From NCBI RefSeq assembly GCF_003073045.1, contig NC_037601.1:8047807-8111806 (forward strand): 64,000 nt of DNA, read 5' to 3'. Source of the stretch: Pomacea canaliculata (taxonomy: Eukaryota > Mollusca > Gastropoda > Architaenioglossa > Ampullariidae). Shown here piece by piece: positions 3,001 through 55,615 of this stretch. The translations under genes and the position numbers were made by a program. The notes below the pieces were generated by a model. It was not told where the DNA came from and ran no database searches. It worked only from the letters and a program-made list of their open reading frames with translations. Every line of letters begins with the position of its first letter. Position 1 is the stretch's first letter.

Positions 3001-6000
3001 CAGTCAGACAGACAGGAAGGCAGATGGTATTTTCCCCCCCCCATACTGGGAATGGTTCCTAAGTCTAGACTAAAAGAGCAGTCTCATCAAAATATCAAAG
3101 GAAAAGGAATATCTAAAAGGTATATGTGATTTGAAGGACTGGCATGGAACAGACTATGTATAACTCCTTGGCAAGGGCTTTTCATTTTCTTAAAATTAGC
3201 AGGCTGGCTTGATGCAGTTAGAGAGCTGGTATGCTTTCAATGAAGAGCTATGTTGATGGCAGGTCAGCTCCTGGCAGAGCCTCACAAGTCAGACAGGTCT
3301 AAGAATACGGCCAGCAAAATGCCAGGAGGTATAAGGTGAACCCTTATATCAAGATTGGAAAGACTTGAACGATACAGACATATTGTACCGTTGTCTCATG
3401 TTCACCATAACATGGAAGAATAAATCTAAGAATAGGTGTTAGTTCAGTTGATAATCAGCAAGAAGTTAACACAGATGATAGCACTTAACATAAAAATCCT
3501 GTTCCATTTAAAATAGATTACAATGAATCACCACCAACAGATGACTTCACCTGGCAGCATTGTGAACACGTGATGGACTGGAAATAATATACAAAACAGA
3601 CTCAGTTAAACAAGGAATGTTTTCCAGAGAATGAACAAAATATGGAAATCAAATTATATCAGATCTGCATTTCAACATTTGATTCAGAATGTTGGGGATT
3701 GAAAGAAAGTGATATGACAAAACTATCACCATTTCATACTGAGAAGAGTCCTGTGAATATTATGGACCTAAAAGATAGCCGATGAAGAATTTGCATGCTC
3801 CAATCAAAGAGTCTATCATAGCTATGACTGTAATGGTTGAAAGGTGGATGTAGGTCAGTCATGCATGTGCTTAGCTGAGAGGAAAGGCCCACAGTAAAAA
3901 CAACACTGTTCTGGACACCTGGAGCCAAAAACGAAGAGAAGTAGAGAAACAATTTTCATGCTTGACATCTGAGCCAGAGATGAACAAATTGATCACAATG
4001 CAGGGCAGCTGAAATAAGACAGCCAAACACAGACAAAAATGGGAGACCTTTGTTTCAGCCCTATATGCCAAGATGTAACAGGAATGAAGGAATCAATCAA
4101 CAAACTATTTAACCAAGCATGAGATGAAGCTGCTTGGTTTTTTTGTACATACTTTCACTTATAATGAGAGCATGAATAATGCAGGCCCTTTAGTTTAAGT
4201 AATTTTCCACTTTCCAAACTTGCAGGGTACAGGGCCCTCCATTCCTAAGTATCTGCAGTATGAGGGTCCTGTTCGCAACCGGCGACTTGGAAAGCGCGAT
4301 GCAGCTCTTATCATACGGGACATCTGGCGAGAGAAATCTGCAGCTGATGCGGAGGTCAGTGATGAAAACAAAATGATGATTTGCTTTTTTAAATCTATTC
4401 CTTAGAGAACACCGAAAAAGAATAAAATATCAAAGTTATCACTTTGGAAAAGGTTTAGAAATACTTTAGTGCTTTTATCATTAGATTCATAGTCTGAAAG
4501 GTCAAGACATTATGATTTGATAGTCTTAAAAGAGATACAAGATAAAAATCACACAGTAGGTCAAGTCCTTTCAAAGTAATGGTATCTCAACAACCTGAGA
4601 AGTGCTCAGCTGTACAGCTCTGTTCTCTTGTATAAATTCTACTCATTATACCTTCTCCAGAGACAGACGGCACGCGAGAGAACTTGGGAGAGTTCCTGCA
4701 TAGGTACTTGAAGAATCGCTTTTCCTTGGATCAGCTTGTGGTGGAGTGGGGCTACAATCTGTATGATGCTTGCCAGCGTTATGCTCATGATGAAAACATT
4801 GGTCTGTTTTGGCGTATCCTCAATGAGGAGGTCAGATACAAAAGTTTCTTATCAATGTTTTGCTTCCTGCTTGTTTATAGGAACATTGCAGGGTTGAGGA
4901 GGTTAAAGATGTCAACCTGGTACAAACTTTAAGAAAACAGAATTGAGTAGGTGTATATAAAATGTCAGTTAAAGATCGAGAAACTGGGGGAGCTTTAGAT
5001 GCCAGATGGCAAAAGACCTTATTTCAATCACCAGTTACTTTGGACTTTAGACAATGACTCATGAATAATAGAGTAGTACATTTAAAAGAAAAAATAAAAC
5101 TGCACAAATATATTGGATTACTATGTAAACAAAATAATTTAATAAATATAATTGTCGTAAACATTATTTTACTTCAGGGATCAAAATTCAGTTGTATACT
5201 TAGTAAGTACCTCGACATAATCCATGAAAAACAAATCTTTATCCCACCCCTCTTCAGTTAGCACCTGTTACATCACTAAACTCGATCTGCTTATAAAAAT
5301 ATAAAAATTTAACATTCCCAGAATATCTAGGCAAGACTTCTGCTGTTTTGTATTCGAATAAAATGCAATAACTTCATGATCACTTCCCCACAACAGGCAG
5401 ATGAAGAGATTTACCATCAGCAGCTCTATTTCATCCACACGTTGCTCACTAAGCTCACCAAGGCAGACATGCAGCATGGCAACATAGGCAACCTCAGCTA
5501 TGGGTTGTTCCTGAGCACGCTGCAGAATGCACTTCCAGGGATCGATGAAGAAGCCTTGGCCATTATCATGAAAGCAGTGGATACAGATGGGGACGATAAA
5601 GAGACACAAGAGGTGGACTACAAGAGCTTCTTTACTGAGGTACAACCTGTCTGTGTCTTAGGCACAGTGAAATATAGAACTGTTTTCTTGTTTTTGTGAA
5701 TCATAGTCTCCGTAGTAACAGGCCCCAGAGAGAGTTTTACATCTTAGTGTTCTCTTTGTATACTAGAGCTGCTTCCTTTGACCAGCAGCATTAAGACAAA
5801 GTATGACATTTTTATTTTAACAAATGGAGAGTATATATTGTACCATATCAGTTGTGTCTTTTGATTTGTCTTGATGAAAAAAAAAAATATTTTGATGTAT
5901 GCATGTTTGTGTGTGTGGATAGGATGATGAAGGTAAAACTGGCCCATTCCTGACAGAAGTAAAGAAATGGATGGAGGCACAAAAAGCAGCATACATCAAA

Positions 6001-14819: not shown

Positions 14820-15973
14820 ATGACTGAACAAATGGAGGAGGGCGTTCGAAAACGTTGCGAGCGTGAAGAAAGCACGGCCAGTCCTGATGCAGATTCCGAC
14901 GATCCAAAAGCCAAGTCAGGCGTGACACTGTCGAGGTCGCTGGGTCTCATCAGCGGCACGTCTATCATCGTGGGGACGATCATCGGTAAGTGAACAGAAG
15001 ACGGAAACGCCGAGGACGTGCTTCGCTAAACTCCGCTGCTCTTCTTGGTTGATGCAGACTGAAAATCTTGCAAGTTTGGAAGAAAATTCCCAAAGCTTTT
15101 ATTTTTTTTAACCTAATTGTGACCTTGTTTTAAGAATGTAAAGGATATAAGGTCGTCTTACAGCCTTTCCGTGTATTCATGTGTGCATGGATGCCTGTCC
15201 GTGCTGGTAGTTACGTGTGCATGTGATTAGTTTGTGCGTTCGTGTGTGTGTATGTAAATAAAATTGGATGAGGTAAGCGATTTAATTAGTGATTACCATC
15301 GTTGCAACATTTGAAGACAATGTGTGCAGGTTCTGGGATCTTCGTGTCGCCCAAAGGAGTCCTGGCCAGCACTGGTTCCGTTGGTCTCAGCCTCGTCGTA
15401 TGGGCCCTCGCCGGCGTTATCGCTCTCATGGGTTAGCTCCCCGCTTTCTCGATGACTGTCCTCTGGGACATGATTGACTTGCCAGACACATCACTCGAAC
15501 CTCATTTTGATAACATAATTGTTGCTCACTTTGTAAGATCATCGTAACTGATATTGATCACATTTGAGGAAAAACTGTTAAAAATGTGTTTGAAAATGAG
15601 AAACCTGGAAATACAATAATCATAAACATATATTGAAAATGAGTGTTGTGTGTGAATTAGGAGCACTTTGTTATTCGGAGCTCGGCACCCTGATGTCCAA
15701 GTCAGGCGGAGAGTACCAGTACTTCCGGGAGGCGTTTGGCAACGCAGCGGCCTACCTGTACGCCTGGACGTCCGTGGCCGTGCTACGTCCTTCAAGTCTC
15801 GCCGTCATCTCCCTCACCTTCGCGGAGTACACCAACACCCTCTTCAACTTGTGCGGCTCACCCGTAGCACCCGTCAAACTGACGGCAGCGGCGGCATTGC
15901 GTGAGTGAGTGAGTGAGTGAGTGAGTGAGTGAGTGAGTGAGTGAGTGAGTGAGTGAGTGAGTGAGTGAGTGAG

Positions 15974-16013
<40 letters not shown>

Positions 16014-17919
16014 TGAGTGAGTGAGTGAGTGAGTGAGTGAGTGAGTGAGTCAGTCTGTACTGTTAACTTTTAAAAAAATTGCAAGCAGCCCCTTTATTAC
16101 CTGCATTGAGTTCAAGCGGTCACACCAAGTGTTTATAGACTGTCTACACTGTTGTAAAGAGTGCATCATTCTTTCTCTCTTAAATTTATGCACCATATAT
16201 CATATACCATATTGCTACATAAGGACATCTCGCTCCTCTAGAAGTAAAGGGCTATAGCCTCTCCTTTTGAGTGTATGAGTCTGCACGCGTGTTAATTTGT
16301 ATTGGTGTACGTTGTAAATACGTTGTAACTACGTTGTAACTATTTCCACCTGTGTATGTGCGCGCATATGTGTGTGCATGCGTGCGTGTGACACTATGTA
16401 CGTTGGTGCACGTGTTCACCCCTGTTGCTACGTGTATCTGTGTCCAGTGACCGTGGCTGTGGTCAACTGCGCCAGTGTCACCCTCGCTGCCCGGGTGCAG
16501 GTGCTGTTCACGGCGGCCAAGCTTGCAGCGCTCTGCGTCATCATTATCGGGGCTTCGTCAAGCTCGGGCAAGGTCAGAGGTCGAGGGATCAGGCTTAAAA
16601 CATTCCATACCGCCTCGAGTAGACCTCTCAGCCCATTCCTCTTAATTTTATGTGCGCAGTGACTTGTATATGGTTCTAACCCCATCGTATGTTCCCTGGG
16701 AGTGTATTGTTGATTCTAGGCGATGACACGAATTGTTTTTTCGGTCTGTGCACTTTCTCTTCCTCCCCACCCGACATCTCACCCCTCATCTTTGAGACCT
16801 ACAACCAGAAAAATTCCTTCCAAAATTGTAACATGTGTAGCGCTTACTGCAGAAATGAAAATTGTCTTTTTGTCGAGCATTGTTAAGCGGGTGGCGATGA
16901 GAGTGAGTACCCTGAAGAGACCAGGGTGTGTTCGGGATGGATTTCTTCCGTGAACTCTTCTAGCTGTAGTTTTATTACAAATTTTAGGATCTACAAATTA
17001 ATGTTCACCAAGCTTGTTAAATTCAGCAGTAGATGATATCAGTGTGCAAAATAGTGAAGCATTGGTTACAAGAAAGTGGTGCTGGATTAGCATCTGTCTC
17101 ACACTCTCAAACTTTCTTACTCTCTCATTCTTCAGTCTCTGTCTCGCTCGCTCACTTATTTTCTAAAATAATGACGATGTGAAAATGTGTTCCGCCAGTG
17201 ACATCTTATAAAAGTAGCAGTTATTACAATAAAGATATTCTAGCACGAAATATACAAACTAAACATAGTTTAAAGGAGTTCAGCAAAATTTTGTTAGAAT
17301 CCCTTCCACATTCACATATTCCACAGAATGTGTCTGGTTAAGAAGGCCTTTTGATCCGTCACTTACTGTACATAGGTAGTTTTGTGTCTTGAGGCAGAAG
17401 TACGTAGGTGCGCAATCTTTGCGACTCAAGTCTTCAAAATGTATTCCGGGTGTCAACATTTGTCCTCCCAATTCAAATATTTGACATAGACCTTCAAACA
17501 GTTAATACTTTTATCTATATCATCATTATGTTTGCGTTACATATAGGAACTGTTTCAAACCCTTTTATAATTTCTGTAAGAGTCTGCAGAAATTATCGTG
17601 GAAATATTTGCAAGTGTGTGAACAACAAAAGCCCTGATGTCCAAATACTGGGTGTCATCTGTGAACAGGATACACGACTGTACTAGCGACGGGTTTCGAG
17701 AATACCATAGACAACCCGGCCACTGTTTCCCTTGCCTTCTACAGCGCCCTCTGGGCCTACGACGGGTGGTAAGCGAGACTACTTACATCCTTTTATGAGA
17801 AAAGTAAAGAATTTATTTCCGATATTTTAGTTCTGAGCCGATGTTAGGCCATGTTGAGCTCAGGGCGAACGACAGATGCTGCGCGCTCTCCCTTTGACCC
17901 TACCCTCCATAGGAAAATC

Positions 17920-24614: not shown

Positions 24615-25532
24615 TCATCGATGTTGACATTGACAGCGCAGTAAACGCACACAGACTTTCCGAAACGCTTTGATCTTCCAGGAATAGATGACAACATTAC
24701 AGACGGAGGTGCTGGACCCCAACATGAACAGGAAGGCTCTTGTCTGGAGTGTCGAATTCTCACATCCCCAAAGCACAACTACCACAACATACGGCAGCCA
24801 GCACACGATAAATATGGTGTTGATGACGAAGAACACACCGACCGACTTGAAGTTCACGTGTGACAACGGACGTGTCGTCTGTTCAGCGACTCGTCGTTGC
24901 TGTTGGCGGGAGACAAGAACGATCTTTATGTAGCAAAGGGAGGACACCACTGAAGCGGACAAAAACACGCCTGGCATTGCTATGTGGTAGTGATCTCTTC
25001 CTAAGTCCTCCTCATCGACACAATTGCCAGAGAAATCCTGCTCGAAGTATCCGGTCAGGGCTCCCATCGTTAATGACAAGACCCAGGAGAGGACGATGCC
25101 GCATTTGAAGACCCTTCCGGTCGCGGGTTTGATGTAGAGGAAGGGATACACTATGTACACAAGCCTCTCCAGGGCCAGGAGCAACAAACCGAGGAGCGAC
25201 TCCGTGGCTGCAAAATAGTTGTAGGAGAGAGCGACGATGATGAAGACTCTGTCGGGGATGAGGCACAGAAGCGATGTCAACGATCTGGCGCCGGCCAAGG
25301 CGCAGCCCACACCCACCAAGAAGTCAGCAACCGCAATGTTGGCGACGTGAAGGTACGTGAGAGTGCGAAACTGTGGTGTGACGAGGACAGCAAGAATCGT
25401 CAGCACATTGCCGAAAGTTAAAAATGGAAGCAAAACTGCGATGCTGGCTGAAAAGACGATGTAGTCAACAGTCATATCATCTTGTTCACATTGCTGCTCA
25501 GTGGTTGAGCTGAGTGTTGTCATACTTTCCAT
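24615..25532 (-). CDS. Intronless rhodopsin-like (class A) GPCR, orphan, copy 1
   Basis: A single 305-residue open frame carries seven hydrophobic segments (roughly 24-51, 60-80, 97-128, 143-162, 185-208, 231-254 and 266-284). Class A marks are GN at 41-42 (TM1), ANIAVAD at 64-70 (TM2), CWLP at 244-247 (TM6) and NVVIY at 279-283. The last replaces NPxxY, losing the proline. The DRY motif is ERL at 122-124. The usual cysteine at the head of TM3 is not at the expected spacing. Loops and tail are short. The tail has cysteines (RLLRCQC) that could be palmitoylated. It is clearly homologous to the gene at 28613-29608; both share R-LTYLH, RLVYIVYPF-YIKP and RQQQRRVA/RDQQRRVA. The ligand is unknown; I do not recognise a named vertebrate orthologue. 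Confidence 0.9.
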   Translation of the reverse strand: MESMTTLSSTTEQQCEQDDMTVDYIVFSASIAVLLPFLTFGNVLTILAVLVTPQFRTLTYLHVANIAVADFLVGVGCALAGARSLTSLLCLIPDRVFIIVALSYNYFAATESLLGLLLLALERLVYIVYPFLYIKPATGRVFKCGIVLSWVLSLTMGALTGYFEQDFSGNCVDEEDLGRDHYHIAMPGVFLSASVVSSLCYIKIVLVSRQQQRRVAEQTTRPLSHVNFKSVGVFFVINTIFIVCWLPYVVVVVLWGCENSTLQTRAFLFMLGSSTSVCNVVIYSWKIKAFRKVCVRLLRCQCQHR

Positions 25533-28500
25533 TTTACACTTTCGAAGGTTGTCTAATTAAAATATTTTGGAATTTTTGTCAGTGTCACATGTCGCGGTCA
25601 CTGAGTTAAGTCCATCTTGGATGGATGGCGACGTGAGCTTTCCCACTTGGTTTAACGTAGTTTTTCTGGTGTTCATCACCCAGTGGTGTACCCGTGATAC
25701 TCTCTCCACACACAGGTTGAGACCTCACAGCTCTCAGCCACACATGCAGCAGATTGCTCCTGGTTCCTTTGCAGTCATCAGTGGAAGAACCACGAATGAC
25801 TTTTTCCAGCTCATGAAGACAGATGCCTGTCACCTTCCGCGGCTGTTCTGCAAGGTAGAGACCATCTAACAAGTTCTTGTTCTCACCTGATTCTCTTTTT
25901 ATCTCCTTTTAACGAAGACCTCACATTTTCCCAATTAGTTGCCCATCGTCCATTAAAGCTAACATCGATATGAATCTGATCAGGTTCTTAAGTTTGTTTC
26001 TTTTTTTGGGGTGGGGTGGGGTAGGGGTGGGAGGAGTCACATTGCACTATCTCTGACAACAACTGAAGCGCGTGGGAGCATTTTTGCGTTTCGAAGATTC
26101 AGATTCGATTTGATGTGTGATTTATTCAGGGCTCTAAAACGTTTCATATCCTCTGACATCACGCGCGTGCACGCACATGAAGTTTTTTTTGGGCATTCGT
26201 CACTAAAAAAGCCGATTAGTGGAATAATGACATCTGTTTGATCTGCTGTTCATCGAGGACAAACAGACCGTTGCTTAGAATACCTCTTGTCTAAACATTT
26301 TATAATCTCTGCCGCAGTCAGCGATTTTGATGACTGATAAGGCAGTTAGAACTGTCTAAACACCTCCCTGGGCTTGGTGATGGGAGGAAATCTTTACTTG
26401 CAGAAAGCTAGCAAATGATATCGTGTAAGGCTCATTAGCAATTGTTTCGCTTTTGATACACTGATTTGTAGAAATAATACAGTTAAGACTATTATGTCAA
26501 GAAGGACGAGGGCTAGTAACTGCTAATCACTCCACTTTCTATAGTGACTCCATGACTAATGTCATCGCGACATTGAGTAATCCGAGGGTTGCGAAATCAC
26601 CTGGAGGTGGAAGCACACAGACTTACAGATCATAGAAGTTTGTATGAGAGCACTTTATCTCCAAAGAGACCGACCAAACCAAATAACCCGTGGGAGACAT
26701 TTTCGCAGAAAAAGTTGTTTTTCCTGACTTTGTACAAAGAACGTGTCCAGCAGCGATACGTGTAGGTTTATTGAGTTCAACTAGACAATGGTGGTTAAAA
26801 AGATGGAAGCAGCTAGGGTTTGTGCAAGTCAGATTCAAGGTTCTCTGAAATACCTGAGAACAGAAGAGTAACAACTTGAGGTGACTGCTCTCTGTCTTTT
26901 GCCTCGCCTGATGGTCTTGTTTTGTCACTTGACATCGTTTTGATGTGGATGTGTGTTACATCTCTGTGGCTTGGGACATCCGTGTAACCGACGGGGATCC
27001 GCAGGCTTCTTTTTGACCATAGGGGGATGTGTGTGTGAAGTCTGCATTTTCTGTGGTTTCTTTCTGTCTGGTTTATGTGTGAGGACTACACATTCTACAG
27101 AATATAAACACGTTTCTGTCTTTTGGCTTGGAGTTATAAATCCGCTAAATGCAAAAGTAAATTTGTAATAATTATTGTTTCCTGATGATATCATTGCTTT
27201 TATGGAGTAGGGATCTATTTAAATCTGACATCTTGAACTGTGAAAAACACCACCAGACTCTGTGCATCCGTTCTACTTCCACTTCACACGACTGTCATAT
27301 CACAATTCTCCCTTTTAATGTTTTTTGTGATGTACGTCGAGCTCGCGACCCTGTAAGGAAGTATGATTACAGATGAGTGAAAGATCAATTAGCATCACCA
27401 CAAATTACTATTTTTCATCCCCATCATTTAAAAACATTTGATGCAGTATGTAATCATTATATTGTATTCAAGCATCGTTTAGGTCAGCATCATTCAGAAC
27501 ACTTAGTTAAATTTTCAATCAAAACAGTTTAATGTAAAGCGCGGAGAGCCAGCCTCGTCCTGGAATCACGTGCAATAGAAGCACACTGTATTGTTACTAA
27601 CAAACCGTTTAATATCTTTAATTTATTACACAGCCTTGCAATCAATGCATTGTCTTATCTGAATACAAATTATTGTCAAAGCTGCATGGCAGGAACAAAA
27701 GACTTGGTGGACAAGGTTGACCCATGTGGTACCACGTGACTCCGCTGGACGGAGCGTGAGGCGAGGTTACTAGCGGGGTAGAGCAATGACAGATACTGTT
27801 ATCTAGATTGTGCAATTGTGTGCCGATCACTTTGCCTGATAGCTGGACGATCTTGTTTAGCCGCCCACGAGCAGGGCGCTTATTTTACAGATGTGGTGTT
27901 GCCATAGAGCTCTAGTCAAAGCAGAGCAAAATACTGTCAACAGTTTGAATTTCACAAGGATCTGAATGGTTTTATTTGCCCAGATCATCAAATTATGCGA
28001 ATGAATGAAACCCAGAGTTTTAAAAGTAATTTTACACTAGGGTTAGCTTTGAATAAGATTCCAAAGTTCTTTTGATGTGTAATATGTAATATGTACAGCC
28101 TTTTTTTTAATAGTTTCTCTATTCTTTTTACTCTCATGAGGTATTAACAAACTGATACATTCTGCATTCAAGGGTTCACAAAATACAAATATTGATGACA
28201 AGATTGTTAAAATCATTAAATATGGTCTAAAATAATCCTCGTTTCTCTCCATGTGTTAGAAACGAATAGTTTATTCAAAATCTCTAAGTCAGGATTTGCT
28301 TTAATAAAGATTCAATCCATATATCTGTGATAACACATTCATTTCAAAACATCATATCTATTGACGTGATAAATACAATGGACTCCAAACACAAAGCATT
28401 CTAATAAGCTATCCTAAATTTAGATAAAATCATGTAAAGAATTCCCTAGACTCTTTATGGCGCCGAGATGGGAAGTCTCTGAGCTTGAGAGACCGATTCA

Positions 28501-28612: not shown

Positions 28613-29608
28613 TTACGAGAAATTGCCAGGACAGTTAGTTTCTTGTTTCTGACCACAGCACAACAATCGTCTGTAAATTTTTCGCATCTCTTTGCTCTTC
28701 CAGGAGTACAAAAGAACGTTCAGAACGGAGCTGAAGTTTCCAATACAGAACAGAAGTTCACGGCGCTGCAAAGACCTGTATTCACAGGTGGAAATTATAG
28801 TGTCCAGTGTAAACGGAATCCAACACAAGACGAAGACGGTGTTGATGAGAAAGAAAACTGTGATAGACTTGGCCTTCGATGGAAGAATCACCTTGTGGCC
28901 GGCCACTGTCCAGGACTGAGCCACCCGCCTCTGCTGGTCGCGGGAGACGGCGATAATCTTCAAGTAGCATGCGGTGGAGATGACAGAGACGGGGAGGAAG
29001 ATGCCGGGGAATGCAGAGTGGTAATAATCCAGGTCGACGCTTCCAATGATGCACTTTCCAGTGGAAGAGCCCCACAACAGCAAAGGCATTGTTCCTGAAA
29101 AAATGGACAATCCCCAGGCTGCGGCCATGGCAAACTTCAGCAGCTTGGCTGTTCGTGGCTTGATGTAGACGAAAGGATAAACGATGTAGACAAGCCTGTC
29201 TATGGCTAACAGCAGCAGACACAGTAGAGAAGCCATGGCCGCCGAGTAGCTGCATGTAGTGTTTGCGATGTAATACGCAGATGCGGCCCCGTCCATGCTG
29301 CACATCGGCCATGCTCCTGAAAGGAGGGCGCCGAGGCCTACACCAAAATCTGCCACCGCGACATTGCAGATGTGCAGGTAAGTCAAGCTTCGAAAGTGCG
29401 GCGTCGTGATCACAGCCAACACTATGAGGCCGTTGCTGAAGGTTAAGACTGGAAACAGAAATCCCACATTGAAGATTACCTGAAAATAGTACAAAAATGT
29501 ATCAGTGGAGACGACCGGGTTTGAGGGTTCTGTCGAGTTTTGCATCTCGGAATGAAAGTTTCGCGATGCGTCTACTGAAGTAAAAGTTTTCTTATGTTCA
29601 GAGTGCAC
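28613..29608 (-). CDS. Intronless rhodopsin-like (class A) GPCR, orphan, copy 2
   Basis: A single open frame of 331 residues from Met1, or 310 from Met22, which lies just before N24-S-T, a likely glycosylated extracellular start. Seven membrane segments are present. CNVAVAD (TM2), DRL at 137-139 in place of DRY, CWIP at 262-265 (TM6) and NVLLY at 297-301 replacing NPxxY mark it as class A. A second N-glycosylation sequon N116-T-T is in the first outer loop. The third inner loop is about 10 residues longer than in copy 1. The two genes are in the same orientation about 3.1 kb apart, so they look like an old tandem duplication. The ligand is unknown. Confidence 0.9.
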   Translation of the reverse strand: MHSEHKKTFTSVDASRNFHSEMQNSTEPSNPVVSTDTFLYYFQVIFNVGFLFPVLTFSNGLIVLAVITTPHFRSLTYLHICNVAVADFGVGLGALLSGAWPMCSMDGAASAYYIANTTCSYSAAMASLLCLLLLAIDRLVYIVYPFVYIKPRTAKLLKFAMAAAWGLSIFSGTMPLLLWGSSTGKCIIGSVDLDYYHSAFPGIFLPVSVISTACYLKIIAVSRDQQRRVAQSWTVAGHKVILPSKAKSITVFFLINTVFVLCWIPFTLDTIISTCEYRSLQRRELLFCIGNFSSVLNVLLYSWKSKEMRKIYRRLLCCGQKQETNCPGNFS

Positions 29609-30756
29609 AGGTTAGGGCTTCATAAACTCTTCCCTGTCTCCCTGTGTCTGATTTCCAGGTACCGCAACTTTTTGCAGGTGTTTTAAACCTGGATCCACCA
29701 ATAATCGGAGGATGATAAAAAGCCGTCTGTGACGCTGACCCCAGGTCTGTTCGTGTCTTTAGTTACTGAAATTCCGCAGGCGCCGCGCGGATGATCAAGT
29801 GAGGTATTACAGAGAATGCATGACAGGAAGTCATGAAGCAATATATTATTACAAATTTTAAAAAAAATGATTCATTTCGTGTTACAAATTAAAATGTTAA
29901 GAGATAAGCCCAGCTGTGACCTTACCAACGTCTGTTTTCCTCACTAATTGAGGATGCTGGTCATTGATTCTTTCGCACATGATCTAGTGCTGGAACACTG
30001 GTAATGCTGAAGGTGCTGTTGCTGTTGTTGATAATATGAATCATTGATAAGTGAGGACAATAAGGCTAACGACGAGGATGATGACGCGCACGTGCTCAAC
30101 TACTAGATGGATCCGAGTTGAATCTGGCAAGCTAGACCAACATCATGGAAAGATAATATCTTGCACTTAATTTTACTCAGTCTTTAGAACACACATACGC
30201 GCACCTTCAAAGTATGGAAAAAAAACTAGAACCCACACTCAGACAAGTGTGACAGAAATGAAATGTGTGTGTGTGTGCGCGCGAGCCTGCTTGAGAGAGA
30301 AAATTAAAACGGAATTTCTTTATTTCTGGTCATTTACATAGCCAGAGGGCATATGTCCTCTTATTGTTGCCTAGCAATTGATCAGCCAATGTTTATTGTT
30401 GTATCTGACATCTAAGAAAATTTGATCTACATTTAAAAAAATTAACTTTTAGAACTGAAGGAAAAATATCTTCCGTTTGTCCAACCCACACATCTCCGTG
30501 AACACTTGAAGTAACATTACTTTTATACTTTTTATGTACTTCAGCAACAGAAGAACTCAACAAAGGGGAAACACTCTTCTCTCAGTCCTAGTTAGTAAAA
30601 TTGTCATCGATCAATATTTACAGTCTTTTATAAATAAAATATTTCTCTATATATTTCCTTTACGTATTGTGTTCTTGCTACATCGATCAATTTCAGTCCT
30701 TCTCGCTTTACTTTTACTTTACTTTCATTCAGTGCGAGCCGTCACATATTTTCAAC
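29609..30756. other. Divergent promoter region between GPCR copy 2 and BBS4
   Basis: The two start codons point away from each other across about 1.15 kb, so both promoters should lie here. It contains a GT/GC run near 30266-30285 and the X-box-like site plus CCAAT box at 30366-30390. No other gene is visible. Confidence 0.6.
30366..30390 (+). promoter_or_regulatory. RFX X-box-like site with adjacent CCAAT box
   Basis: GTTGCCTAGCAATT at 30366-30379 matches the RFX X-box (GTTGCC, short spacer, GCAAC) except for the final AC. CCAAT follows at 30386-30390. RFX factors drive ciliary genes including BBS genes, and the site is about 380 bp upstream of the BBS4 ATG. Function is inferred from motif and position. 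Confidence 0.5.
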
Positions 30757-37294
<6,538 letters not shown>

Positions 37295-39107: not shown

Positions 39108-39350
39108 ACAACCAGTCTATCACTTCAAGTCTTCAGTCTTCATGGCATCACAGCAGACATAGCATGCCACTTCTAGTCTTTATAGGATCACAGCAGACAT
39201 AACATACTTCATCTAGCCTGTCATCTTCATGGCATCACAGCAGACATAGCATGCCACTTCTAGTCTTTATAGGATCACAGCAGACATAACATACTTCATC
39301 TTGCCTGTCATCTTCATGGCATCACAGCAGACACAGTATGGCACTTCTAG
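39108..39350. repeat. 87-bp minisatellite made of two related half-units
   Basis: CATGGCATCACAGCAGACAT recurs at 39141, 39228 and 39315, an exact 87-base period over about 2.7 copies. Each unit contains a second, diverged GGATCACAGCAGACATAACA. The 87-mer therefore itself arose as a dimer of an element of about 43 bp. It is non-coding and lies between convergent genes. Confidence 0.93.
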
Positions 39351-39777
39351 TCTGACTTCAGGACGGTTTCTCTGGGTACCGATGTTTCCAATTCCCTTAC
39401 CCATAATTACTCTCCTCTCCGCCAATAAACTATATCTCAAACTTATTCTGTAATATTTCCTTACATTTTGTGTGCCTCACTCCTCATTCAAATGCCTGAC
39501 TACTAATGTTCACATATATTTGTAGCGATACACTGTGAAACCATAGCACAAGTCGCACATATGCCATTACAGACTTGATGTTTATACATCACTCATGCTT
39601 ATGTCATGACGAGACTCTCCGTTGTTGTCCAAAGCATCAACATTGTAGTGTCCATCGACCAATCCGATCGTCGGTAGCAACGGTCACCTCCTTGCACTCA
39701 CCTCCACGTTTTATCTCCCACTCCCTCCCCCGCATCCTTGCTGTGTGACTCTTTGGCGTGATGGTCTCCTAGAAACT

Positions 39778-39833: not shown

Positions 39834-42800
39834 TCATCTCGACTTCGCACTTTTCCCTCTATCTGAGAGTCGCTGGTTTGTTTTTTCACTGCTCTGTGAT
39901 GGTCGGGCTATGTCATCACTATCGTTGTTCGACATTTTCTTGGCGGTGACAGGTCTGTGCACTTGTAGCCCTGTGGTGTTTCTGTACACTGCTGCTAGTG
40001 TTTTAAATGAGGTGGTCTTGGGAACGCCTTGTTGCGACTTCGGTCGAGGTTTGTCGCGCGCGTGGGCGGTGGCACTGCGGTTGAACTCTGTCTGGTTCAC
40101 AGTCGCGTTCTTGGCCGAGTGCGCGCGACGGAAGCGGTCGTCGGTACGTGACGTCACACCAGTTGGGAGGACCATCGGGAGGCCCTGTCTAGAAATGGGA
40201 GTCACTGGACGACTAGCAGGTCTGCTTGTACCCGTGTCTCTTTTCTTCACGGATTTGTTTGCGTCAGCACCGGTTTTGGTTTCCTCGATCTTGGCAGCAG
40301 TCACCTGGATTATGTCGGATGTCGCGGAGGGTTGATCTCGGGATGTTTGTAACTCTTTCACGTTTTTCTCGGCTTCATCCGTTATCGGAATTTGGTGATT
40401 CTCTGTGGTCAGTGGAACCGCAGTACGGTCACAACTTTGATCTATGAAAGTTTCCTCTGAAATGAGAATATTCTCTACGGGCGGGATTTGAGCTTCGGCT
40501 TTCTCTGCGGGAAGATTTTTGCCCTCAGAAGCTACTGAAGTCGTGTCACCTTCTGTTTGTACAGGAACGCCATCAGCCTTCTCAGGTTCAACTTGAGGTC
40601 GATGCATTTCCGGCACAGGTTCGCTCTCAGAGCTGTTTGGCGTCGAGCCTTCGCGAGAATCGACGGATTGAAGCCCATCGTCCGGAGCTTCCGTCACGAC
40701 AATGCTGACTTTCGGAGTCCGAGTCCTGCTGCCTGCCTGCTCTGGCGCCTCGGGGCCAAGACCGAGGACAGTTCGTCTCAGTCTTCTTACACCTGGGGAT
40801 CGCTTGACCGAGTCAGCCTCGGACACGACGAGCAGGCTAGCGGCAGCGTGTTCCAGACTGGCCTTCAGCTTGCTGTCGTCCATGGCGCCGTCCAGGTTGA
40901 CCATCAGCTCATGGCGCTTGGCCGTCTCCTTCTTCTGCTCCTCGCTTCGACGCTGGTCTGCAATCTTGCGCGACAGTTTTCCCTTCTCCGACCACACGCG
41001 CAACACCTTGGAAGAAGAAGAAGAAAGAAATCTAGGATGAGACAGACAAGGAGATGCACACAAACTCAAGGATGAAGACAAGACAGTGACAGAAAGAACA
41101 AAGGGAGGAACAGCCAAAGACAAATGGAAAAGCGGACTGGGAAGACAAAGTGGAAAAGACGGAGAATCGAGTTAGACAAGCTTAAGCAGAGACGTTCATA
41201 TAAATAAACGTGTTGAGAGGTCATTATTCTTTAGGGATATAGTGCGATGGACGATCAGTAAAGAAAATAACACTTAAAAAATGACAGACACACAGATAAG
41301 AACAAATAGAATATAACGACATCTCGATAGAACCTTTCTATGGCGCTCCAGGTCGTTGTCTTCGTTCTTTTGGACTTTCTTCTGTAGCTGGGCAACGACT
41401 AGGCGCGCTCTGATTAGGTTGCGCGTGTGCTCGCTGATGTCGCTGGCGTCGTCTCGAGTGGCGATAGTGTGGTCGTAGCAGTAGTCGACGATCTTGGCAA
41501 TGATGAAAGCGATGGCGACGGCGCCGACCATGACGCCTACGGTGATGAGCACCTTCTGGTAGCCGTTATCTGTGTTGGTGCTTGATGAGTCTGTGCGAAA
41601 CGTGAATGGGAGGTAATCAGTGTAATATAAATGGGGGGATAATCAGCCTAAGTATTATCTCGCTTAATTTTCTCTCTTTCTTTCTACAGTTGAATTGACA
41701 GAACCTCGCAACACCTACAAACCTTCCACGCAATCAATAAGAGTCGCTAAGTTCGTACTGAGGACAAACAAGCCTGGAGTATGGAAACCAAACATTTGAC
41801 AAGAGTTCGTCCACGGAAGCATTGTCTGCCACAGTTCACAAGCACTATTGGGACTACATTCACACCGTAGCACCTCCATCTCCCCACATTTTTTAGAATA
41901 AAAATAATATCTTAAATAAGCTTATTGTTTGAACAGACTTGTTGGATTGTTGTTCTTTAAGGGGCCACGTGGTGAATCATCATTCATTGGACCTCGCGCA
42001 ATCATACCTGAAAGGTGAACACACACACACACACGAATAGGGATGTTACCAGATGGAAGAGAAGTTTTATGCTTTCTCCAAGTGATAGTTGGGTCTGAGT
42101 AATACAACGGGCCCACCAAAGCCCAGACGTGTCTGATGGCATTGATCATTGTAGTCTTTACTTTGAGTCTTTCAAGCGCTGAACAAAGCCGCCACAACGT
42201 GTCACAAGCAGGACGAGAAATGCCATGCACGTGACAAAAAGAATGGTTTTACGATCTGGCAGCTATTCATGAGTCAACACTATCCAAAAGCACGATTTAC
42301 CAGACGGGACTGTTAAACGCCGCTCGGGTATCCATGTACCCTGAGATTTGTGGGTGTCAAATCAAATAATGCCTTTTAACTCACGCCTTTGAACGCATTG
42401 CAGTACAGCTCAAACTTTGAAAACTACTAAAATTTGTCTGTTGAATTTGGAATGCAATTCTTTAGTTTATATAAAACCTTATTTCTCAACTTTAGTATAT
42501 AGAAAATTATTTTAGTGCCTCTAAACATTATTTTCTGTTAAAACACATTATTCTAATTCTCAATTTGTTTTAAACAGGGAGAGAACTGGTTAACATTTTT
42601 ATAGTTTCACGTCTCATGAAGAGAAGATATTCTCGTACGGCAAACCAGAATCAATGAGGTGCTAAGTTCATATTGAGGACAAACAAGCCCGGGGTATGGG
42701 AAGAAAATATTAAACGAGTTCGTCCTCGGAAGCATTGTCTACCACAGTTTCCATGCACTATTGGCATTGCATTTATAACCTACCCGCCCACCCCACACAG

Positions 42801-47822: not shown

Positions 47823-50800
47823 ATGATTGTAACTCGAGAACTAATTATCAAGCGCCCACCTTTGGACCGTCACGTGTCAAAGGTCAAGATCAGCGAGGGG
47901 CACATGACGTTTGCACAGCTGACGGAAGCCGTGGTGTCGCGAGGCTGTGGTTCGGAGCGCAGCTTGTTGCTGCTGCTGCTGGAGGGTCGGGGACAGGCGG
48001 TCAGCGAGATGGTCATCTGGTCAGTGCTCGACCTGCTTCTCTATCTGGCCGGCCTGCTGGTCCGGCTGGTGGAGCCAGTACTTTTTTTGTTGGTATGTTT
48101 CCATCTTATTTGAACGAATACAGAACTGTGAATCTCCGTCCCGTTACTGGGTCTTTCCGTCGTGGTTTGTGCAGACTAACCCACCACGTGTTTTTGTTTG
48201 GTTGTTTATTATACGAGTTGTAAAGTTAGCTGTAGCTTAAGCTTGCTTACTAATTTATTTTATAGTTTTTTATTTGATCATACGGAGAGAGGACATGAGA
48301 GATTTTTTTAAAGAATAAACTAAACTAAAAGGGGAAAGGGTGGACGAATGAATGGCTGTTTCGTGAGTCTGTAAAAGCTGCAGATATAATTTATATTTTC
48401 CCAAAGAACGGCTCATTTAAGTCAGAACTGTTTAAACAGGTAATATTAAATTGAGTTGGGATGCTGTACTTTCTATGATAGCCAGTGCTAGAAAACATGG
48501 AAGTGTTCGAAAAGTGTGTGTATCTATTTGTGTACATTTTCATTTGTTTGAGTGTGTTTGTTCGCGCGATTGGTATTTTGCGTGTATACATGTGCATAAA
48601 CAAGCGTTTCCGGTGCATGTAGAGCATGCAGAGCACGTAAAAGGGAGGAAACTGCGACACAAGGTGTAGACAGTAGTTATTGTTCTTGATGACCTGACCT
48701 TTCACACAAGTTCTAACTTGCAGTTACTGTTTATAGTGACACTGATTTACTATGCATACTGCGGTTTATTTTTATTGGTATTAATCACATCGGTTTGCCA
48801 TCTGTTACCTCCATCCCCCGCCACCCTACAGGTGAGCTGCTATGACGATTACGTGTACTCGCCGCTGCAAGCGTGGCTGTCGCCCTTGGTCCAGCGCGTG
48901 CCTCGAGAGGTCAAGCTCGGGGACAGAATGGTCACTGTTTTCACGGCCAACATCGTATCCTGGGCGAGGACAGGACTGGTGATACCAATAGCCTGCGCAC
49001 TCAAGCAAGTAATGCACGCACGCGCACACAAACACACACACACACTTACTCTTGCTTTCCTTCTGTTCTGTTAGTCCTTTTTTTCCAGTCTTTCTGTCTG
49101 CTTGTTGGTCAGTCAGCGAGCACGTGTTTCTGTCCTTCCCACTCTACCGACATGACACTTCGTTCCATCACTGATGATCATTTACGTGATAACAACATTC
49201 ATGACAAAGATAACTAAGATCACACGGTGTCCTACCTGTTGACCTATAACCCTTCACTACACTTTCTCAAACAGGTGTTAGTCTCTGTGGTGTCTATCCA
49301 ATTAAATGTTGCTAATTAAACTTTTTTTTTTTTTTGCTGTCCTTTCTATGCTTAGTTTGGAAGTGCTAGGTTTCCCAGTATTAATTTCAAACAATTCTAT
49401 TTATCTGAAGAAAAGAGAAAGGTAAACATCGCAACGCCTTTTGAAACTTGTTCTTCAGATCGATTTTGTTTTGTATTACGAGGCCCTCGATGAAACGTTT
49501 GACTAGACTCCCGTTTCATTAGAGCTTTCAAATGTTTACAGACCCTGCAACAAAAAGCTTGATTGTTTGGCTGAGACTGAAATGAAAGAAAACTGTAAAT
49601 ATTTTCACATGGTAGGGTACATGACGGTTTATTAAATCAAAGAAGTTTTGACATTTCTCACACACGGCGCGTGTACAACACAATACCGTGTAAATGTATT
49701 TGTCTCAAGTGGTATTTAAAGGCAGTTAAACAAATTATCCCGTATTATTATTTTGTAATGTCAAGGTTATTATTTTAATCAGGTATCAGCTCCACTGGAC
49801 GGGCTGTCTACTTATCGTCCTGCACGACTTTCTGGATCACGTGGACGGCATCGTTGCCAAGGTTCACCGGCGTGTTCATGGCAACGTTGACGATCCTCTG
49901 CTGGGTGGATTCATGGATGCCTTTTGTGACAAGGTGGGTGTAGTATTTAGGTTACATAGGTTTAGTATTGAAGTTACAGTCGCCTGATATTTTTAACGTT
50001 TATGTTTACTCTATATCTGTTTACTAAACTACCACAGGGGGTACGTTTTGTAAGTGCTGTTTGGGTTTTTGCTGCATAGAGATGTTTTGGGCTTCTTTCG
50101 ACATCGTTTTCTTTTCTTCTTTTCGTTTCTTTTGATACAAGCCCTCAGCTAATCATCTGTAAGGATCGACAAACATACTAAACAGTTTTCATTGGACGTT
50201 GTGGGAATCGTTTCCACTTTGAAGCTATGTTCTCGATCTATGTTCTCCCTAGTTAAGAACGAAGTCGGTATTTGCGTTGTCGCCGATCGTCCTGAATCTA
50301 GTGCAGCCCCCAATTAAGATGGAAAGGTCAATGGCGCAACATCTTAGCGGTATGTAGAGTACAAGTCATTGATTTGACTGATCTGTCGGAAGATTACAAA
50401 ATTCTACTCCGGGTCTTGTTTTTATTGAATTATTAGAGTAAAATAGACGATAGTGGCCATTCTGAGAACAAAATGACCTTCCAACTTGCACATGACATCA
50501 CATGAAAGAGATATGGACGATACAGATAACGAAATGACCGACTACCCGCTTCCTAAGTCCACAGTAGTCATGTGCCCAGTTTAATGGGTCGAACGGGAGT
50601 ATTAAGGAAGATAATGCTAAAAGATAATACGATAATAACATCTTCATGGAGATTAATGGAACGTTCAAATGAGTGCATGCCAATGTCTATCTTCTTCACG
50701 TCCTCACCCGTCGGAGGCATGATAGGTCACGTGATATTTCCAACCTTGCTGAAAGTGATAAGTGTCTTGCTTCTGCAAACTTAACAGGTAACAAATTATC

Positions 50801-53800
50801 GACTTTCAAAAAGTCGATCTGTGCAGAGAAAGAAAATTAAATAGGTTTAGAAACTTGACGAAAAGTGTAACAGCGCCCACTCAGCACCTCTGTGGGGAGA
50901 GACTCGTTTTTAGACACAGAAAGGCAGTGGGAAGTGTGCAAAATATAAAATCCCAGTGTCAATGATAATAAATCTCTATCCAGGTTCGAGGATGCCATGA
51001 TTCTCGTGCGCCCTGAATTCGTTTCAGCAAAAAATGTCGGTTGTTCTTTGTGTACACACCATTTTTGTAACAACCTTTCCTGACTGTGTGAAATGGCAGA
51101 TGGTGGTGTGCAGATAGTAGAGATCGCGTAAAAAGTAAAGATCCTGGATAAGAGATTAGAAAAATTCCTTTAAGTGTTAATTTGTGCAAGAAAGATGAGC
51201 TCATGAGGAATAAATGTAAATCGAAAAGCAACGAAATGGGAGTGACGCTTTAATGTTTGTCTTTAATTAAAGGGATACTCAAGTCTTGTGATAAGGCTGT
51301 GGTGACGGTCAAAACGTTTCAAACATATATTTAGTTACAATTGCAGAGCACGAGAGCAATACAGGAAAAAGAATTCGTACACAAATCTGTCTTGTGGGTT
51401 AGAGTTTGTTCTGTGGAAGGCGATGTTTGTAGGTATACTGTATATGTAAATCGAGAGCGGAGAAATATTATCTCCAGAGTTTATAAAATCGCAGTTCGTA
51501 TCGAGATCAACCTACTCATTTGAAAAACCAAATTACAACAAATATACTTTTAATTACATCTACTGCCCTTCTTTGTCTGCAGATCGTGAATGTGCTGACC
51601 TTGTGGAGTGTGCTGATGGTGACGGACTTCAGTCACATGACCTGGCCTCATTTGTTTCTCTACGTCACACCATGTGCCGTCATCATAGGATATGAGTTTA
51701 CCCTGGGAGTAGTTCGCGTTCAGGATTATTTCTACTCTTACTACATGCGGTATAACCACCTTTTGTTTTGTCTTTTTTGTTTGTTTTGGTTTGTTTCTCT
51801 CAACTGAATTTATTCATTGTCTAATTCAGGTGATCTATCGGTACGATTCTTCGTGTCTCTTATTCTTTTTTGAGCTTTTAATTTTTATTCTTCCTACTAA
51901 ACCTACATTTTTAAGGAGAAGTTAAGGCATGCAAATAAAAATTGTAGGACGATAATAAATATAATATGACAACACAGCACTCGGTCATGTAACAGGAGAA
52001 GTTCATTACAAAACTTTTGTAATGTTAAGTTCAATATTATACGCCACATTCCTATTTTGACAGTAGCTGCCAAGGTGTTCAGTGGATCTGAAGTTTGAGT
52101 TTCAATTTGAGATTCAGATTGGATCCAACGCTTAAATACATCAAATTTCGTAATGATATAACAGAGACCTAATAATGGTTACAGAGCTTGGTGATGTTTG
52201 TCTGTCAGTAATGGTGACAAGGCTGGTTACGTCTGTCGTTAATGATGACAGGACCTGGTAATGTCTGTCTGTCAGGGAGTTTAAACAGAATGACGATGGT
52301 GCCAGCTCTGAGTCCACGGCAGCAGTCATGGAGGGCAAGCTGAAGGAGAAGCTCGAGTCCATGGGCCTCGCATTTCTCTGCCTTGCCCAGGGGACGCCAG
52401 TAATCATGAGAAGTGTTTGTGAGTCAAATCTTGCTCATTCCATCTAAGCTAACAATACGTGATATCAATTGGCAATATCAATTGTACGATTGTACTCAGA
52501 CTCCATTACACAATCTTCTTATACTCTTTCTTCTCGCACATCCGACTGACCACCACCAAGCTCTGAATGTGTTCGACTTACAATACGAACTCCAACTTTG
52601 TGATTTATTTTGAAGGCGTGGGTGCGCGTTTCCTGTGCATGCAAGTCAAATAAAGTGTTCGTTGGTTGATTGATTGTGTTGAAGCTGGGGTAGCAGGAAT
52701 CGCATGCCTTATCCTCTCAGTGCGACTCGCGCATGCCAGTCTGGCCCGGAAATTGTCGGCGCGAAAACAACGGAAACCAATCAGACAATCAAGTGGCTCC
52801 ACCGTCGGCAGCTGTTTGCACCACTTAAGGGTAGGTTTAATTTTTGAAGTCAGTTTAAAAACACAGAAAAAGTACAAGAGAAAGAAGCAAAGAAGAGAAC
52901 AAGGAAATAAGAAATAAAGACACTGATAAACAGTTATCCCACACCAACCACAAATACATTTTAGCAATATTAAAATATGGTCAGTGGTGATTTTGTGTCA
53001 CGTCTTATTTAACTGTCTCTAGACACGACGCACGACAGGTGTGCAAGTGGACCTCCCGCCCGTCGACAAGGAGTTCATTGGCTTCAAGAAACAGTAGGTG
53101 TTGGTACGATCGCGCTCTGAATGTTGCTGATCATTAAAGCATTGTTTCAAAACATCACGCTTCGCCCTTGTCACGGATGGAAGGAGGTGTGTATTCAGCC
53201 TGAAAGCGTTTTGGGGAGAACGGAGTTTTTATAGCAAATGTCCGTGCTCCGTGAGAGAGGAGTATCGACTGAGTGGAAGTGGGTAGATAAGTGTGTCAGG
53301 TAGGAACATGAAAATTGTCATTGATCTCCTCCACCCTAGTTTACCCCAGTCAGGGGTTTCACGGCCTCGTAACAGCTGAGAGAAACGGGATTTCGCAGTG
53401 CCGGGGTAGCTTGCACGGTTGATATCACGTTAACGCTTTGCTGGGTATGAAGGACTTGACTATTCTTCCCGTGGTCTGTTAGGGCGGATGCCGAAAAAAA
53501 AGGGATTTGGAGGACATTTAGTCACTGGGTACCTCGTTCATTCGCTCGCTTGCTCACCCGACTGCTTGCTTTTTCTGAATTAATTAAAAACACACAAGTT
53601 TAGCACTAATTCCCAACTTTATCAGCTTCATTTCCTGTCATGAGACTGTCAAGATTAAAGATTAATTTTACCTTTTCTTTTTCATTTCTTGACATTTTCT
53701 TGTTTTTCTTCTTTTTTTTTTGTTCGCTCTTTATTTCTTTATTTCTTTCTTTTCTTCGTTCTTCTATCGGTTTGTTTGCTGCTGTATAGAAATTATGTAA

Positions 53801-55615
53801 AATAATGACCTGTCCACCCCAACAAGCAATATTGCCGATAAAAGTTACTGTAAAGTACTTGTACAACAAACAGACCATAGCCTCATAAGAACTGAGATGG
53901 ATGCAACGTCCTGAAATATATCTTGAATGTTTGGTGAGATTGAATGGAATCGGTTTCTGTTACACCACAAAGAGTACAGACATTATATTGGGTATTCTGT
54001 GTGCAGTCTTCAATACAAAAATGTCCAGTCTTATCTTTTGAGTCTGCCTTTTACGGAGAGAGTTTTTAACAGTTTTCAGTAAAATCACTGTAGGAGGAAT
54101 GATAGACACAGTCGTTTTCGAGAAAAACTCTTGAAGCGACACAATAGGGTTTCGAAACAATGGACATTGAATCAATCGGCTGTTTGCTGTTTCAATGCAA
54201 TAACTAGCTCCTTTCTGTGTGGTCATCATCCTATTTCTGAATCTGCAATAAATAAATAAATAAAATGAAATAAAGGCGAGGAAAAATAAAAAAATAAAGA
54301 AGAATTTTCTTTTCTGCCCAGATCGTCACCAGACAAGTACATCAAAGATGACCTAGCTCCCTTCACACGCAGCATGTCCGTGCCGACTGGGGTGGAAGGC
54401 TTGGTGGACAAAGTCTACACTGTCGGGTGCTTCGACCTCTTCCACAAAGGTCACATCCGCCTCTTACAGCGCATGCGCTCTATTGGTAAACAGGTCAGTC
54501 GCACAGTTCTGCTATCTACCAACGAGCAGGTTATTGCATAATACATTGATTCCTTTCTTCTGCATCTCGTCAGCTGACGATCGAAAACCTCTGTGATGCT
54601 CTTGTCGTGTTCTGTAAATAATTCATGGCTTAGAACAAGTTAGGGGCAGATAAGTGACGAACAGTGTTGGACAGGTTGCTAGGTCGCTCTCAACTCTCCC
54701 TTCCCGTTCTGCCTGCTTGCATTTGTTGTCACAGCATGCCGCACTTGTTTGCAAGGTTTGTCTTTTGCAGGTGATTGTAGGTGTGCATGACAGCCGCAGC
54801 ATTTACATGCTGAAAAAGCGAGTTCCAGTCGACAGCACAGAGAAGCGAATGTTGAATGTCAAGCAGTATGCTGATGTGGTGAGTAGATGTCTCTTGAGAT
54901 AACAAAACCGGCAATACTGGCATTGCAGGAAGTTACCCGGATGTTATTGTGAGACAGATATAGGCTCTTGTACAGTTACTAGGACTAACAATTTTTTTCC
55001 CAAAGAAACAGAGCATGGAAAAGTAACATCGGTCCTTGTATAGCATCCTTATTGGTATCATCTCAAATGTACTGCAAGAATAAGGTGTGCACACAGAACT
55101 ATCTAACAAAGGAGAGCTGTTAAAAGTTTCTCTCTAGGGTCAAGGTGATGAACTAGATGTGCATTCCTATCTCGGGTTTGCTGCACCTCTGCTCAATAAC
55201 TTCTTCAACACGCCCTCGTTGTAACTTTGTACAAGGACAAAGATAAAGATTATCAGCTGACCTCTTAGTCTGTTCCTTTTCCCAATCCCTCAATGATCCT
55301 TTGCTATCCCTGCGGTAACGATATTTATTTTTAATATCAACGGCCCTGGGGGTTTGTCGCCAGGTGTTTTGCATCGCCGGCACCGACCCGTCCACCTTCC
55401 TGGCCTGCGCTTTTGCCGGGCGCCAGGAAACCAGTCTTTACGTCAGAGGGGACGACATGCCTGACTTCCCGGCCCGCGAGCTGTGCGAACAACTGATGCC
55501 CGTAACCTTTCTGCCCTACACCCCCGGGGTCAGCTCCACCAAACTGCGCAAGGAGATCTACAACAGCAGCCAGAGTGACCCCCGCCTCGACCTGGACGCC
55601 AACTTGTTCTACTGA
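47823..55615 (+). CDS. Fused CDP-alcohol phosphotransferase / HxGH cytidylyltransferase
   Basis: Ten exons close in phase: 47823-48092, 48832-49004, 49783-49933, 51583-51749, 52276-52418, 52685-52830, 53023-53093, 54322-54493, 54771-54878 and 55364-55615, giving 550 residues. The N-terminal half is polytopic and carries D166-x2-D169-G170-x2-A173 ... G189-x3-D193-x3-D197, the metal/substrate signature of CDP-alcohol phosphotransferases. HDFLDHVDG and DPLLGGFMDAFCDK recall ceramide phosphoethanolamine synthase. The usual AR is AK174, and the spacer to G189 is 14 rather than 8. The C-terminal domain (about 403-535) is a nucleotidyltransferase of TagD/Pcyt2 type: VGCFDLFHKGH (HxGH 415-418), VRGDDMPDFP (494-503) and TPGVSSTK (520-527). 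Inferred role: making an activated phospho- or phosphono-headgroup and transferring it to a lipid. The substrate is unknown. The ATG follows a likely 3' splice site at about 47765. Confidence 0.88.

Follow-up and report, generated by a model that had tools for sequence, protein, structure and literature searches.

Do two consecutive steps of headgroup activation and transfer reside in one animal protein? The question is raised by a gene of the snail Pomacea canaliculata lying in a 64,000-nucleotide stretch of contig NC_037601.1 (positions 8,047,807 to 8,111,806; hereafter the window, on contig C12 of the snail assembly in our numbering), which a first-pass annotation had read as a fusion of a CDP-alcohol phosphotransferase (CAPT) to a cytidylyltransferase (CyT). 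We found that ten plus-strand exons (47823-55615, Table 1) splice into a single open frame of 550 amino acids plus stop, and that the database protein LOC112553248 isoform X2 of P. canaliculata (P0001, 523 aa) is contained in this model without any difference, which confirms at the level of the gene model that one gene encodes both domains. The 27 residues upstream of Met28, where the database isoform starts, may not be translated. The second intron (49005-49782) is of the GC-AG type; an alternative GT donor four bases downstream would keep the frame but lose one residue present in relatives.

The CAPT motif DHVDGIVAK...GGFMDAFCD spans residues 166-197, placing D166 and D197 exactly where the first-pass annotation had put them, and all four Asp and both Gly of the signature DxxDGxxAR...GxxxDxxxD are present. 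The window protein scored 22.8 bits against PF01066, marginally above the cut-off of 22, in the initial gene model that preceded refinement of the exon 2/3 boundary; six relatives scored 26.5-41.8 bits, and those of them having a CyT scored 46.7-77.6 bits against PF01467. The predicted structure displays the six-helix fold of class I CAPTs, its closest structural matches being the six-helix PgsA, PIP synthase and AF2299, and an extra hydrophobic helix is found at the N-terminus. After the last membrane helix (274-303 of P0001) come a linker modelled with low confidence and then the CyT, so that the additional three to four C-terminal helices with which CEPT1/EPT1 cross the membrane are lacking; CEPT/CHPT structures did not appear among the 50 VIA-align matches listed, which is no proof of their absence. 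Scores against the equivalog models for archaetidylinositol phosphate, PIP and PgsA synthase stayed far below the cut-offs (NF040950, 29.6 vs 180 bits; NF045883, 19.3 vs 170; TIGR00560, 19.6 vs 109.1), placing the domain outside these groups. The earlier designation "CPES-like" found no support in this resemblance to PgsA, PIP synthase and AF2299, the sequence of Drosophila CPES, an ethanolamine phosphotransferase of the Golgi lumen, lying outside the comparison, nor was any arthropod among the named sources in a CAPT profile search (92 rows, proteins of limited length).

Downstream of the membrane part, as had been proposed, lies an HxGH cytidylyltransferase, with the motif GCFDLFHKGH beginning at residue 409 and GVSST close to the C-terminus; its PF01467 score, from the same initial gene model, was 46.1 bits (cut-off 21). 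The domain does not carry the Arg of RTEGIST that marks the PCYT1/PCYT2/TagD subgroup, and it fell short of the equivalog cut-offs for TagD (TIGR01518, 38.3 vs 165.4 bits) and HldE domain II (TIGR02199, 49.5 vs 181.5 bits). Its best whole-chain sequence match in the PDB was PCYT2 (3elb, 2.7e-13, a score summing the two domains of that protein). Thus the catalytic signatures of two enzymes that act in consecutive steps are combined in one protein, as the first-pass annotation had claimed, and so are the two predicted folds.

To place this protein within a family, 7995 candidates were scored, of which 87 homologs had an E of 1e-3 or better. By pattern matching, both motifs were found in 70 of the 87, the CAPT motif alone in 5, the CyT motif alone in 11 and neither in 1, some of the single-motif homologs being clearly partial or altered; CAPT precedes CyT in all 70 two-motif homologs, so the pairing goes beyond chance and the fusion is widely shared. 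Members with named sources came from gastropods, bivalves, a chiton, Lingula, Tubulanus (a nemertean), rotifers and Branchiostoma (amphioxus), and we take the labels scpid and Nk52 to denote Sycon (a sponge) and Chromosphaera. Cephalopods, limpets, cnidarians, annelids, arthropods and vertebrates were not seen among the source-named rows of the 87, which leaves their absence unproved. Sequence comparison thus depicts an old, well-conserved family found in many invertebrates. Among the rows that carry no source name, 20 have the two Pfam domains together on contigs 1.4-4.0 kb long; in 16 of these the longest contig does not exceed 1.34 times the length of the coding sequence, which looks like spliced transcripts. 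These data bear on the alternative that gene prediction merged two adjacent genes. Exons 7 and 8 are split by a 1.2 kb intron and 16 of the 87 homologs carry a single motif, as a merger might leave them, but the frame and splice sites are consistent across the CAPT/CyT junction, and the 70 two-motif homologs and the 20 short two-domain contigs make such a merger highly improbable.

Beyond the fusions, the CAPT-only profile search, with short proteins as candidates, recovered seemingly unfused relatives in Balamuthia and in sources labelled Nk52 and Colp12, some of these rows possibly being partial. Prokaryotic genomes yielded 92 pattern-matching stretches, of which three were confirmed as CAPT relatives (33-37% identity), all from Magasanikbacteria (L001-L003), which carry the nearest prokaryotic CAPT relatives found here; no PEP mutase was seen by eye among open reading frames of at least 90 aa around the three. 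On viral contigs, none of 20 pattern-matching stretches was confirmed. A viral or prokaryotic source of the CAPT was rejected.

One relative has the domains in the opposite order. P0232 (415 aa on a 1646-base contig, probably from a protist) carries an N-terminal domain resembling glycerol-3-phosphate cytidylyltransferase (TIGR01518, 1.6e-30, 105.8 bits, under the cut-off of 165.4) and a C-terminal CAPT of the same family, which is the archaeal domain order and not that of the window protein and the 70 two-motif homologs. In the CAPT tree P0232 groups with P0230 and P0234, both devoid of HxGH (SH-aLRT 100), and in the CyT tree it falls among TagD-type bacterial rows (97), separate from the animal clade (99); both trees were quick ones, with long-branch warnings for the bacterial CAPTs, Fom1 and Segatella. 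For an approximately unbiased (AU) test, the three bacterial sequences and both bdelloid ones were dropped from the set used in the CAPT tree. Forcing P0232 into one group with 25 forward fusions, apart from 12 other sequences, cost 161 log-likelihood units (p-AU 6.5e-10), and the forward fusions alone as a group were not rejected (p 0.321). Since a shared origin of forward and reverse fusions is rejected by this test, coupling of CyT to CAPT probably arose twice, the reverse fusion being the second, independent joining, which provides a strong hint that the two steps act in series.

Taken together, the window protein is probably a bifunctional two-step membrane enzyme catalyzing CTP activation and then transfer, a judgement that does not extend to the headgroup. 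Which reactions it performs, on which side of the membrane, whether the intermediate is channelled, and what serves as headgroup and acceptor are matters of inference. The C-terminal HxGH domain would convert CTP and a small phosphate or phosphonate compound to a CMP-activated donor, and the N-terminal six-helix CAPT would move the headgroup from this donor to an acceptor hydroxyl at the membrane, releasing CMP. Because the catalytic loop and the C-terminus of the CAPT fold face the same side of the membrane, the two active sites should share that side, an arrangement that suits the handing over of an intermediate.

Several observations weigh against this two-step reading. Lys replaces the Arg of the CAPT signature in the window protein and in 69 of 75 motif-bearing homologs. 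The Arg of RTEGIST, as found in TagD and in the snail PCYT1- and PCYT2-like proteins, gives way to Tyr both in the window protein and in the 73 homologs examined out of the 81 that bear a CyT. The CAPT signature is changed, as judged by eye, in P0059 (Didymodactylos) and no longer fits the pattern in P0061 (Branchiostoma lanceolatum), both retaining HxGH and GISST/GVSST and possibly representing CyT-only paralogs, and the first His of HxGH is missing in P0072; because of these changes, CAPT and CyT may not always act together. The linker is of low model confidence, so that the relative placing of the two domains is not given by the model. The reverse fusion is known from a single short contig, and the group constrained in the AU test was picked after the tree had been seen.

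If the protein is such an enzyme, does it belong to the Kennedy pathway? The snail genome contains a separate CEPT1-like gene on contig C3, an EPT1/SELENOI-like gene on C10, a PCYT1-like gene on C14 and a PCYT2-like gene on C1, the last two keeping RTEGISTT; these names are ones that we assign from motifs rather than from full gene models, and a gene on C5 presumably resembles CoA synthase. A PF01066 search of the genome found three other places (C3, C10 and C8) and missed the CAPT of the window itself, so this count is a lower bound; a motif scan of the C8 stretch gave no match. Because PCYT1-, PCYT2-, CEPT1- and EPT1-like genes exist separately, the fusion is not the snail's Kennedy pathway.

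PEP mutase is the entry to aminoethylphosphonate, and co-occurrence of the fusion with it had been suggested as a check. On contig C4, a tblastn comparison with the PEP mutase of Mytilus gave six segments of 61-82% identity, which contain EDKLFPKTNS, in agreement with EDKxxxxxNS, the motif used for true PEP mutases (PMC6697681), so the expected gene is present in the snail genome. This motif was decisive, as a Pfam search for PEP mutase alone was unspecific (positive in 11 of 14 control genomes). Our leading, though tentative, candidate for the product is ceramide aminoethylphosphonate (CAEP), in which case CTP and 2-aminoethylphosphonate (AEP) would give CMP-AEP and the CAPT would move the phosphonate to ceramide. 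In Crepidula, another caenogastropod, CAEP is reported to make up as much as 15.8% of the phospholipids (PMC4278228), and it occurs in mussels (PMC8708635); in five crabs, the latter study detected sphingomyelin and no CAEP. Bacterial PF01467 domains of Fom1 and PhpF are described as activating phosphonates (PMC6697681), and the window CyT ends in PYTPGVSST, resembling PYTPGISST in the Fom1 CyTase. Given the separate PCYT2-, EPT1- and CEPT1-like genes, a second phosphatidylethanolamine pathway is also not obviously needed. The family might then, as a possibility we hold with equal caution, be the long-sought animal phosphonolipid synthase, making CMP-AEP and transferring the phosphonate to ceramide, that arose before the sponge/bilaterian split and was lost in several lineages.

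The distribution of the lipid tells against CAEP. Its chief difficulty is that Octopus, for which 29 CAEP species are reported (PMC12335516), has CAEP without a listed cephalopod fusion; cnidarians also contain the lipid (PMC8708635), and neither group is named among the 87 homologs. PEP mutase is also present, among the best 120 of 6315 rows, in cnidarians, insects, limpets and cephalopods, and its co-occurrence was rejected as proof of a phosphonate role for that reason. The Fom1-like ending was likewise rejected as a mark of phosphonate enzymes, because PYTxG[IV]S is present in a CyT that adjoins a LicD gene in Parabacteroides (PYTxGISST) and in a Bacteroides finegoldii CyT (PYTPGVSTT), whereas the PEP-mutase fusion of Segatella lacks it. 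Finally, soluble acceptors are described as usual for six-helix CAPTs (PMC4634129), an objection to ceramide that the extra N-terminal helix might, at a guess, offset.

Bacterial PEP-mutase regions provide a further comparison. We examined nine, eight chosen across genera from the 60 listed of 362 records plus Segatella, with flanks of 4, 6 or 7 kb and incomplete gene tables. Seven carry an annotated CDP-alcohol phosphatidyltransferase together with a phosphocholine cytidylyltransferase-family gene, and the Azospirillum and Segatella regions lack this pair; the seven are not independent because five are from rhizobia. The cytidylyltransferase in these regions is of the LicC/PntC kind and not of the HxGH class, which is a further point against CAEP. 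Four of the bacterial CAPT genes (three loci) matched the animal profile with values from 1.5e-8 to 0.0016 when ten proteins were scored, a match at the superfamily level only. The rhizobial plasmids (L006, L007, L017, L018 and L019) share PEP mutase, an aminotransferase, a phosphocholine cytidylyltransferase-family protein and a CDP-alcohol phosphotransferase, a combination that resembles a set of genes for phosphonolipids.

The choice of acceptor also raises the alternative of a water-soluble or glycerol-type phosphodiester, comparable to the products of AF2299 and of the archaeal di-inositol phosphate enzymes, rather than a lipid. The preference of six-helix CAPTs for soluble acceptors agrees with it, lipid-acceptor enzymes typically having three to four extra helices (PMC4634129). 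So do the closest structures, PgsA, PIP synthase and AF2299, and the likeness of the P0232 CyT to glycerol-3-phosphate cytidylyltransferase. The extra N-terminal hydrophobic helix speaks against it, as does the fact that we know of no abundant soluble phosphodiester common to the fusion-bearing phyla, and we regard such a product as doubtful. Ceramide phosphoethanolamine, or another phosphoethanolamine lipid made via CDP-ethanolamine apart from the Kennedy pathway, appears unlikely, although PCYT2 is the best whole-chain PDB match of the CyT and ceramide phosphoethanolamine is reported in mussels (PMC8708635) and octopus (PMC12335516). The rest of the probability falls to other products.

How does the fusion compare with established systems? 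To our knowledge, bifunctional cytidylyltransferase-phosphotransferases are known only from archaea, and the NTP-transferase class of the archaeal enzymes differs from the HxGH class. Like the snail fusion, the archaeal inositol enzymes unite a cytidylyltransferase and a six-helix CAPT for consecutive steps in one chain; unlike it, they carry the cytidylyltransferase at the N-terminus (PMC4634129) and process no lipid. AF2299 of Archaeoglobus (PDB 4o6m, 4o6n and 4q7c) differs in having an N-terminal domain, a CDP-glycerol donor and an archaeal host, and the bacterial PgsA and PIP synthases in using CDP-diacylglycerol and in having no CyT domain themselves. PCYT2 followed by EPT1/CEPT1 performs the same two serial reaction types, but from separate genes, in the snail as well, with extra C-terminal CEPT helices and RTEGIST kept. 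The Fom1 CyTase (PDB 5x3d) is joined to PEP mutase instead of CAPT, its shared motif being unspecific. The animal family is an old one that joins both steps using another cytidylyltransferase class in the order opposite to that of archaea. Should its headgroup prove to be aminoethylphosphonate, the family would provide the final enzymes, so far missing, for a sphingolipid abundant in shellfish, and a biochemical question that is decades old could be tested directly.

The first-pass statement that no animal enzyme with this layout has been described holds insofar as no paper announcing a function for the animal fusion, or the fusion itself, or naming a CAEP-synthesis gene was among the open-access literature matches listed; it does not hold for databases, in which family members P0046, P0061 and P0079 are labelled "PCYT2" (amphioxus) or "bifunctional protein hlde" (Plakobranchus). 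The present assignment corrects the misleading amphioxus label.

Table 1. Exons of the fusion gene in window coordinates.
Feature	Position	Strand	Content
Exon 1	47823..48092	+	N-terminus with the first hydrophobic helix; the database isoform begins at Met28, 47904
Exon 2	48832..49004	+	CAPT start; GC-AG intron donor (GCAAGT) at end; matches P0001
Exon 3	49783..49933	+	CAPT signature D166xxDGxxAK...GxxxDxxxD197
Exon 4	51583..51749	+	CAPT membrane helix; GVVRVQDYF conserved
Exon 5	52276..52418	+	CAPT loop and helix; MEGKLKEKLES conserved
Exon 6	52685..52830	+	Final CAPT membrane helix, then basic flank
Exon 7	53023..53093	+	Linker; model confidence low
Exon 8	54322..54493	+	Linker end, then CyT HxGH motif (GCFDLFHKGH)
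Exon 9	54771..54878	+	Middle of CyT (VIVGVHDSRSIYMLKKR)
Exon 10	55364..55615	+	CyT end; RGDD and PYTPGVSST motifs; stop codon

Elsewhere in the window, two adjacent single-frame rhodopsin-family receptors (PF00001; 4e-22 and 8.6e-22) lie on the minus strand at 24615-25556 and 28613-29611, with frames of 313 and 332 aa between stop codons. Four open stretches are possibly coding, at 39834-41171 (minus, 445 aa), 36632-37294 (plus, 220 aa), 5331-5699 (plus, 122 aa) and 41274-41642 (minus, 122 aa), and matched no Pfam family at E 0.01. Two repeats were also observed: at 15901-16054 the unit GTGA recurs about 38 times in an array, and at 39137-39353 a unit of 87 bases is repeated in tandem 2.5 times (96% match).

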